DNA of 64,000 bases from Agarivorans sp. Toyoura001 (GTDB lineage Bacteria > Pseudomonadota > Gammaproteobacteria > Enterobacterales > Celerinatantimonadaceae), in assembly GCF_005405585.1 (NCBI RefSeq), contig NZ_BJEQ01000001.1, forward strand, positions 124,001 through 188,000. Reading direction: 5' to 3'. Below, piece after piece: positions 5,573-35,397 of the stretch. The position numbers were made by a program, and so were the translations under genes. The notes beneath the pieces were generated by a model that ran no database searches, was not told the origin of the DNA, and saw nothing but the letters and a program-made list of their open reading frames with translations. The number at the start of each line of letters is the position of its first letter. Position 1 is the first letter of the stretch.

Positions 5573-5672
5573 GTAATATTACAACAATATTACAAATTTT
5601 AGTGACGCACCACTAACTAATACACGAACATAAATTAAATTTTAGTAAAAAAATTACAAATTGAGGTTGTTT

Positions 5673-5688
5673 TGTGAGCTGCGTCACG
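5673..5688 (+). promoter_or_regulatory. CRP-type operator
   Basis: TGTGA-N6-TCACG matches the CRP consensus TGTGA-N6-TCACA at nine of ten conserved bases. A possible -10 element (CATAAATT) begins at 5701. The box stands at the upstream end of a hairpin-rich, non-coding stretch that ends in a terminator at 5864. Its position suggests it controls that stretch and not the hydrolase gene at 6040. Confidence 0.6.
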
Positions 5689-5713
5689 ATAGGATTGCAC
5701 CATAAATTGTTTG

Positions 5714-34664: not shown

Positions 34665-34698
34665 GAAAAATGCCTGATGCTTTTCGCTATCAGGCATT
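34665..34698 (-). terminator. Terminator of micropeptide cassette 1
   Basis: AATGCCTGAT / ATCAGGCATT, a perfect 10-bp stem, followed on the minus strand by TTTTTC. The stem core TGCCTGA...TCAGGCA is shared with the terminator of cassette 2. Confidence 0.88.
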
Positions 34699-34797
34699 CT
34701 AATGCATTTGACTCATAGTGTTTCTCGCTCAGGTTACTATCACTCTTTCGCTACAGCGAAAGGCTAAGTGCTAAGCCCACATGTTCAAATGTGAGGA

Positions 34798-34893
34798 TTA
34801 ACGGTGTAGGTTGTTAGAATCAGTAGCTTTGTTGTAACCCGCAGCTTTAGTAAAATAGTAAGTGGTATATAAAGAACCGAAGTAATCAAACAT
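34798..34893 (-). CDS. Micropeptide 1 (31 residues) of a duplicated pair
   Basis: A 31-codon ORF with GGGAGA five bases before its ATG. The product begins MFDYFGSLYTTYYFTKA and ends in NNLHR. It is clearly paralogous to the 32-residue ORF at 35210-35308. Both are rich in Phe and Tyr at the N terminus, basic and polar later, and lack a standard hydrophobic membrane helix. The ORF lies at the 5' end of a unit with two CRP boxes upstream and a terminator about 100 bases downstream; a further hairpin (34745-34762) sits between. Conservation of sequence and arrangement in two copies argues that it is translated. I do not recognise the family. Confidence 0.72.
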   Translation of the reverse strand: MFDYFGSLYTTYYFTKAAGYNKATDSNNLHR

Positions 34894-34919
34894 AGTGTTT
34901 CTCCCAATAAAAATAAAAG

Positions 34920-34964
34920 TGTGAACCAAGTCACGAAACGAATAATAATGTGACACACATCACA
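34920..34964 (-). promoter_or_regulatory. Two CRP boxes upstream of micropeptide 1
   Basis: TGTGA-N6-TCACG at 34920-34935 and TGTGA-N6-TCACA at 34949-34964. The second is a perfect consensus, the first has one mismatch. Centres are 29 bases apart. The proximal box is only about 35 bases from the ATG, so a class II promoter would have to use the distal box, and the proximal box would then overlap or follow the -10 region. Confidence 0.8.
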
Positions 34965-35040
34965 TTGCAAGTTTATTTTAGAGTTTTTACTGAAATACCT
35001 AACAGAAAGGAGAAGAACATCGAGAGCTGGGAACCCACAT

Positions 35041-35074
35041 AAAAAATGCCTGAAAGAGCGAACTCATTCAGGCA
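35041..35074 (-). terminator. Terminator of micropeptide cassette 2
   Basis: TGCCTGAA / TTCAGGCA, an 8-bp stem extended inside by GAG-TTCG-CTC, followed on the minus strand by six T residues. Confidence 0.9.
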
Positions 35075-35099
35075 CTGGGTTTATCGTGATTCATTACAT

Positions 35100-35186
35100 T
35101 TATCTCTGTTGTCGTTTACCTTGCTCTAAGCATCCAAAACGAACATAAGCTAACAATGCTGAACCAATGATCGGATGAAGAACCAT
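35100..35186 (-). CDS. Possible second micropeptide (28 residues) of cassette 2
   Basis: A 28-codon ORF starting MVLHPIIGSALLAYVRF and ending in a basic tail (GKRQQR). AGGTGAG lies just upstream of its ATG. It follows micropeptide 2 by 23 bases and precedes the terminator. It has a short hydrophobic stretch (IIGSALLAYV). Cassette 1 has no equivalent ORF, so the evidence is only the ribosome binding site and context. Confidence 0.4.
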   Translation of the reverse strand: MVLHPIIGSALLAYVRFGCLEQGKRQQR

Positions 35187-35209
35187 ATACTCACCTATAA
35201 GTTAGTGGC

Positions 35210-35308
35210 TTAACGGTGAATATCTTTGCGAGTTTCGCAATAAAAGTTGTAATCATCAGCTTTCGTAAAATAATACGACGAGTAAAGTGCACCAAAGTAA
35301 TCAAACAT
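35210..35308 (-). CDS. Micropeptide 2 (32 residues) of a duplicated pair
   Basis: A 32-codon ORF with AGGAG seven bases before its ATG. The product begins MFDYFGALYSSYYFTKA and ends in KDIHR. Against micropeptide 1 the first 17 residues differ at only three positions (S/A, T/S, T/S), while the following part diverges and the HR end is kept. This pattern suggests selection on the N-terminal peptide. It is the first ORF in a unit with two CRP boxes upstream (35354-35397), a possible -10 (TTAAAT, about 35325-35330) and a terminator at 35041. Function unknown. Confidence 0.74.
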   Translation of the reverse strand: MFDYFGALYSSYYFTKADDYNFYCETRKDIHR

Positions 35309-35353
35309 AATCGTTCTCCTAAGTATTTAATATTGTTAATGACTTGAACTAAG

Positions 35354-35397
35354 TGTGAACCAAGTCACACCTCTAATTTAATGTGACGGGAATCACA
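35354..35397 (-). promoter_or_regulatory. Two CRP boxes upstream of micropeptide 2
   Basis: TGTGA-N6-TCACA at 35354-35369 and at 35382-35397, both perfect consensus matches, with centres 28 bases apart. The proximal box has the same N6 (ACCAAG) as its counterpart in cassette 1. It lies about 53 bases from the ATG, consistent with class II activation from around -41. Confidence 0.85.

Follow-up and report, generated by a model that had tools for sequence, protein, structure and literature searches.

The minus strand of the window (the whole 64-kb stretch of Agarivorans DNA that was analysed) carries two small leftward units in tandem, u1 (35403-35041) followed by u2 (34970-34666). Their best joint explanation, to which we assign a little better than even probability, is that they are CRP-repressed, peptide-encoding, dual-function RNA units.

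Anatomy of the two units

Each unit contains two CRP-type palindromes, a Shine-Dalgarno sequence, a 31- or 32-codon ORF (ORF1) and a terminator with a GCCTGA/TCAGGC stem (Table 1). An earlier note on this DNA, made from the letters and their open reading frames, had described two consecutive leftward units sharing this architecture, and every element that it named was found on the minus strand. Its span of 34665-35397 excludes the -35 hexamer of u1 (35403-35398); further features that go beyond it are the -35 (TTGMAA) and -10 hexamers flanking CRP box 1, a second ORF with its own Shine-Dalgarno sequence in u1 and a strong conservation of the 3' parts. The units are flanked by a region with a pstS-like phosphate-binding gene on one side and by a Dyp-type peroxidase gene on the other. 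A simple terminator scan recovered neither the u1 nor the u2 terminator; however, the stems and T-tracts of both are kept in all relatives. Taken together, the anatomy is best explained if the units are small genes independent of each other, each with a predicted promoter of the sigma70 type, a peptide and a terminator.

Table 1. Features of the units u1 and u2, in window coordinates
Feature	Coordinates	Strand	Remark
u1 predicted -35, TTGAAA	35398..35403	-	TTG[A/C]AA present in 18/18 units
u1 CRP box 1 (TGTGATTCCCGTCACA)	35382..35397	-	sits in promoter spacer
u1 predicted -10, TAAATT	35375..35380	-	spacer 17 bp
u1 CRP box 2 (TGTGACTTGGTTCACA)	35354..35369	-	overlaps predicted start site (~35368)
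u1 Shine-Dalgarno, AGGAG	35316..35320	-	
u1 ORF1, 32-aa peptide MFDYFGALYSSYYFTKADDYNFYCETRKDIHR	35210..35308	-	
u1 ORF2, 28 codons MVLHPIIGSALLAYVRFGCLEQGKRQQR, Shine-Dalgarno GGTG	35100..35186	-	first ~30 nt identical in 7/7 genus genomes
u1 start-codon-like element / mini-ORF (MNHDKPSA*)	35068..35094	-	ATG 21 nt before terminator stem core
u1 intrinsic terminator	35041..35074	-	
u2 predicted -35, TTGCAA	34965..34970	-	
u2 CRP box 1 (TGTGATGTGTGTCACA)	34949..34964	-	sits in promoter spacer
u2 predicted -10, TATTAT	34942..34947	-	spacer 17 bp
u2 CRP box 2 (CGTGACTTGGTTCACA)	34920..34935	-	at predicted start site (~34935)
u2 Shine-Dalgarno, GGGAG	34901..34905	-	
u2 ORF1, 31-aa peptide MFDYFGSLYTTYYFTKAAGYNKATDSNNLHR	34798..34893	-	
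u2 conserved 3' element TCCTCACATTTGAACATGTGGGCTTAGCACTTAGC	34763..34797	-	34/35 positions identical in 7 genomes; non-coding for ORF1
u2 second conserved 3' element with Shine-Dalgarno/ATG (GAGCGAGAAACACTATGAGTCAAATG)	34705..34732	-	ATG 34716-34714, 21 nt before terminator stem core
u2 intrinsic terminator	34666..34697	-	

Distribution of the units

Relatives were sought in the genus (7 genomes including that of the window, G000, of 4.65 Mb), in 395 genomes of the order and in 369 of the class. The unit pair is present in 7/7 genomes of the genus, one of which (G003) carries three units. Single units occur in a second genus, in the genomes G078 and G139, and in a third genus, in Alginatibacterium sediminis (G096/L039). 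Homologues thus extend beyond this strain, with a total of 18 units in 10 genomes from three genera of one family. Two genomes from a fourth genus of the family carry no unit, and among the 395 order and 369 class genomes no match from beyond the family was better than E 0.005; the best of these outside matches were rejected as homologues, being either situated inside a 390-aa frame or interrupted by a stop.

The peptide has no match in Pfam or NCBIfam, libraries of a kind that covers short proteins poorly, and no relative in the PDB, while a literature search on the peptide string and on sRNAs in Agarivorans retrieved nothing relevant. Viral contigs and plasmids contain no relatives of the units, and on this ground a phage, plasmid or viral origin was rejected. 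In Alginatibacterium the unit sits elsewhere, in a gene neighbourhood different from that in the window. Prediction of a function from the neighbours (the pstS-phoBR side or the Dyp peroxidase) was rejected because this neighbourhood is not kept there.

The encoded peptide

The peptides of the window follow the pattern MFDYFGxLYxxYYFTKA...[D/N][I/L]HR and differ, as the earlier note had it, at three of their first 17 residues (A/S, S/T and S/T). Across all members the MFDYF start, Y12, A17 and a terminal HR are common, with a middle of variable length. The same note had argued that the peptides are translated and under selection, and both the homologues in three genera and the pattern of substitution bear this out. 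By Nei-Gojobori counts, u2 of the window and u3 of G003 differ by 14.0 synonymous changes over 19.0 sites and by 1.0 non-synonymous change over 74.0 sites, and the latter unit and u1 of G005 are separated by 9 synonymous and 2 non-synonymous changes; in the deeper pairs the synonymous sites are near saturation, so that the exact ratios are rough although their direction is clear. The first 17 codons of u1 and u2 in the window show 8.0 synonymous changes over 9.8 sites and 4.0 non-synonymous changes over 41.2 sites, and five u1 ORFs encode one and the same protein although any two of them differ at 0 to 3 synonymous positions. The pairwise differences are thus strongly synonymous, rather than of the kind expected from a dN/dS near 1, and because synonymous change exceeds non-synonymous change so far, we regard it as very likely from these comparisons that the peptide is translated and selected.

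One copy, the first unit of G005 (u0, L081 6220-6315), encodes MFDYFFATYSAYYVTKADDYNFYCETRKDIHR and departs from the N-terminal motif, which means that G6 of the peptide is not absolutely invariant. The changes cluster in the N-terminal part, and the C-terminal half is identical to that of the other u1 copies. This copy may be at an early stage of decay or may have changed its specificity.

The hydropathy of the peptide (maximal 15-residue mean 0.1-0.7) is not that of a membrane-spanning segment, and AlphaFold2 predicts a single helix with modest confidence (mean pLDDT 65). From these properties we infer a soluble or peripheral, aromatic and largely helical peptide with conserved termini, MFDYFG and [D/N][I/L]HR. 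Short ORFs in tandem on short RNAs are also what would be expected of tandem type I toxin genes (Ldr/Ibs-like) with an RNA antitoxin. However, the peptide is too little hydrophobic to span a membrane, no antisense promoter or homologous RNA was recognised, a promoter with CRP operators is atypical for this class, and Rfam shows no such family in the window, leaving a toxin function highly improbable.

A conserved predicted promoter with two CRP boxes

Six sites in the 64-kb window match TGTGAN6TCACA with at most one mismatch, against a chance expectation of 1.8 per window; four of these lie in u1 and u2, as do all three perfect sites of the window. In 18/18 units TTG[A/C]AA is directly followed by box 1 (TGTGAN6TCAC[A/G]), a TANNNT hexamer (TAAAAT, TATTAT, TAATAT, TAAATT or TAGATT) is found 16-17 bp past the -35 hexamer, and the start of box 2 lies 28-29 bp from that of box 1. 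The leader, which separates box 2 from the ATG, is 24-49 nt long depending on the unit, and the fixed geometry therefore ends at box 2, upstream of the leader. The predicted start site that fits this arrangement is the left edge of box 2. As a composite pattern the promoter recovered 16/18 units and no other place in 395 genomes; the two units missed are those of the second genus, in which one fixed position differs. The -10 matches themselves are imperfect (e.g. TAAATT, TAATAT and TAGATT), and in a simple scan promoters of such quality are no rarer than chance in this region. It is for this reason that the argument for the promoter rests on conservation across the units.

The fixed succession of -35, box 1 and -10, together with box 2 at the predicted start and the varying length of the leader, leads to the prediction that CRP acts as a repressor of these units, which we consider likely. 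Thus, of the earlier description of the units as CRP-controlled, the boxes are borne out; a direction of control was absent from it, and repression is now argued from the geometry. The converse possibility is that CRP activates the units, with box 1 serving as an activator site of class I or class II, so that they would be made under carbon limitation. Both boxes are close to the CRP consensus, CRP is most often an activator, and a placement of box 1 at about -41.5 would still leave the Shine-Dalgarno sequence in the leader of the short-leader units. Yet box 2 would then contain the -10, and its sequence at that place (GGTTCA/GGATCA) is unlike TATAAT, and no -10-like hexamer is found at a fixed distance past box 2, the leader being of variable length (24-49 nt). 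Moreover, every unit has TTGMAA and TANNNT on either side of box 1, with the spacing of 16-17 bp. On this evidence activation appears unlikely.

The six central bases are free in box 1 and nearly fixed in box 2 (C[T/C]TG, GCTG), a difference that would follow if box 2 is transcribed as well. As a rule CRP has no strict requirement for the bases at the centre of its site, and because of this constraint box 2 may double as a hairpin (UGUGA-loop-UCACA) at the 5' end of the RNA.

Conservation of the 3' parts

In the genus alignments the invariant columns of u1 and u2 respectively make up 72% and 68% of the stretch from stop to terminator, 78% and 74% of the ORF, 31% and 11% of the far upstream region and 7% and 9% of the region after the terminator. 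The 3' part of u2 begins with 35 nearly unchanged nucleotides, which are followed by a small hairpin of variable sequence and length and by a second unchanged block. Its consensus fold includes three compensated pairs with a weak covariation term (-0.64), and on folding both transcripts are more stable than their shuffles (z -2.9 and -1.7). In u1 the conserved 3' stretch coincides with the start of ORF2 (MVLHPIIGSA...), which is open in 7/7 genus genomes. Its first ~30 nt are unchanged even at synonymous sites, and in its later codons, unlike in ORF1, several pairs show at least as many non-synonymous as synonymous changes (4:4, 4:6). This stretch looks more like one under RNA constraint than like a second selected peptide, though both might apply.

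Between u1, u2, the G003 middle unit and the units from the other genera, the 3' parts cannot be aligned apart from an element with a Shine-Dalgarno sequence and an ATG. This ATG, with purines upstream, is placed 21 nt before the core of the terminator stem in all units of the first two genera and 19 nt before it in Alginatibacterium, and opens mini-ORFs such as MNHDKPSA, MSQMH, MKQSTSSA and MNQR. In the window these elements lie at 35094-35068 and 34716-34705. Possible second ORFs were also noted in the unit of G078 (L083), where MQQTITSTRPTTFACGGSVYRLPKPKEQGNEKS directly follows ORF1 with the Shine-Dalgarno sequence GGAGAAGG, and in that of Alginatibacterium (L085), where MALSQQQGTCCRRLSLVFDYDPYQRACRFEMRMKRRLK overlaps the ORF1 stop (TAATG); neither has a match in Pfam.

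Conserved to the same degree as the ORF and yet different between paralogues, the 3' parts fit a dual-function RNA, and we consider it rather probable, from the alignments, that the 3' part functions as RNA. Similarity searches with the 3' parts for base-pairing targets in the units' own genome recovered only chance-level matches within long ORFs (E 0.27 or worse), and a match antisense to sucC was rejected as a target on the same grounds, i.e. its position inside an ORF and its E value. The earlier suggestion that the transcript could also act as a regulatory RNA therefore finds indirect backing in 3' regions as conserved as the ORF but not in any recognised target.

Alternatively, the units might be plain small-protein mRNAs in which only the peptide matters, the 3' parts having a role in stability or processing or, in u1, coding for a second peptide. 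The peptide is indeed the sole transcribed part common to all units besides the terminator and the Shine-Dalgarno/ATG element, ORF2 of u1 has a Shine-Dalgarno sequence and is open in all seven genomes, and possible second ORFs follow ORF1 in G078 and Alginatibacterium as well. Set against this, those ORFs of the other genera are unrelated to ORF2 of u1, the start of ORF2 is frozen at synonymous sites while its later codons show the ratios given above, and the 35-nt block after the u2 stop is conserved more strongly than the synonymous sites of the ORF. A purely coding role is hence the less probable reading, although one that retains some weight beside a 3' part acting as RNA.

Relationship to known small-protein and dual-function RNAs

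In Vibrio cholerae the VcdRP RNA limits sugar uptake, its 29-residue product VcdP raises citrate synthase activity, and the gene is repressed by cAMP-CRP (PMC8672173). The units resemble VcdRP in being RNAs of ~300 nt with a mid-placed small ORF (29 codons in VcdRP), a conserved 3' part and an intrinsic terminator, as well as in repression by CRP/cAMP, which is shown for VcdRP and predicted for the units. They differ from it in genomic position, in their tandem copies and in the CRP sites, of which one falls within the spacer and one at the start site rather than upstream of the -35 as in VcdR. For comparison of the peptides, the VcdP-like ORF (MKGLPSA[A/M/T]FWLNSSVYTSNF...) was read from Vibrio loci beside pepD and identified by its length, position and CCCC site. 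Homology to VcdP was rejected, as the alignment is no better than that of shuffles (p 0.55-0.95), and a search for VcdP in the family of the units yielded no close relative, all matches being at chance level and lying within other frames or antisense to them. The CCCC pairing site, which was found in the Vibrio VcdRP-type loci as described and is conserved in VcdRP, has no invariant counterpart in u2, whereas u1 has CCCC, CCC or CCTC depending on the genome.

SgrS/SgrT is likewise a short RNA with a small ORF, possibly paralleled by the units in combining RNA and peptide, but the units have no adjacent SgrR gene and have CRP boxes as their control. Homology of the peptide to SgrT (the E. coli copy) was rejected, with p values of 0.04-0.57 of which one in five comparisons reached 0.04, not significant after multiple comparisons.

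Spot 42 with SpfP (RF00021) is similar in being a short RNA with an ORF starting MF; it is, however, a separate gene unrelated in sequence to the units. It is present in 12/12 genomes of the family, with the copy of the window genome on another contig, and no Rfam family, including Spot 42, reaches threshold in the window. In the genus Spot 42 loci (L111, L106 and L113) no TGTGAN6TCACA-like box is seen in the ~90 nt upstream stretch read. If the peptide antagonised CRP, as does SpfP encoded by Spot 42, it would form, together with the CRP-repressed promoter of its own gene, a feed-forward loop. The regulator logic would be the same, and the genus Spot 42 ORF MFYLSDLYFT is superficially like MFDYFG-LYT-YYFT, but this similarity is not significant (shuffle p 0.26-0.58), and a role as CRP antagonist is improbable.

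AzuCR encodes a 28-aa protein and is comparable to the units as a small-protein-encoding RNA under CRP repression, which for the units is predicted; AzuC is not known to share the MFDYFG motif. Repression by CRP of both AzuCR and, in E. coli, Spot 42 is given as cited in PMC8672173. As far as their anatomy tells, the units would work like this known kind of gene, the CRP-controlled small-protein or dual-function RNAs, while they appear to belong to none of its described families and to constitute a new one.

Proposed mechanism and implications

As CRP-repressed dual-function RNAs, the units would be shut off when cAMP-CRP occupies box 1, at about -22 between the -35 and -10 hexamers, and box 2, at about +7, and there excludes or blocks RNA polymerase. 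At low cAMP, i.e. with glucose-like or other preferred carbon, transcripts of roughly 330 nt (u1) and 270 nt (u2) would be made. Working like VcdRP, such an RNA would have two functions, with the ORF1 peptide most likely binding and modulating a protein of carbon metabolism and the paralogue-specific 3' part most likely base-pairing with mRNAs or other RNAs. Modulation of a metabolic protein by the peptide is conceivable at somewhat less than even probability. The units could also have taken over the CRP input of Spot 42 in this genus. Through the tandem duplication the module of promoter and peptide would have been kept, with divergence in the 3' parts. A still more tentative extension is that of a modular array, in which a shared CRP-repressed peptide/promoter module is joined to an own conserved RNA part in each gene; were this true, one carbon signal would elicit a single peptide activity and, along with it, several different RNA specificities.

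Only a few RNAs are known to combine the coding of a peptide with regulation through base pairing. Several dual-function RNAs belong to the CRP/carbon circuit, and the units would add a dual-RNA family from marine polysaccharide-degrading bacteria. As natural paralogues in which the peptide and RNA parts have evolved separately, they would render the two functions separable by comparison. Their operator layout, with one CRP box filling the -35/-10 spacer and a second at the start site, would offer a compact and testable design for repression by CRP. Elsewhere in the window, another CRP-like site (TGTGAGCTGCGTCACG) is present on the plus strand at 5667-5691, with TTGTTT upstream.
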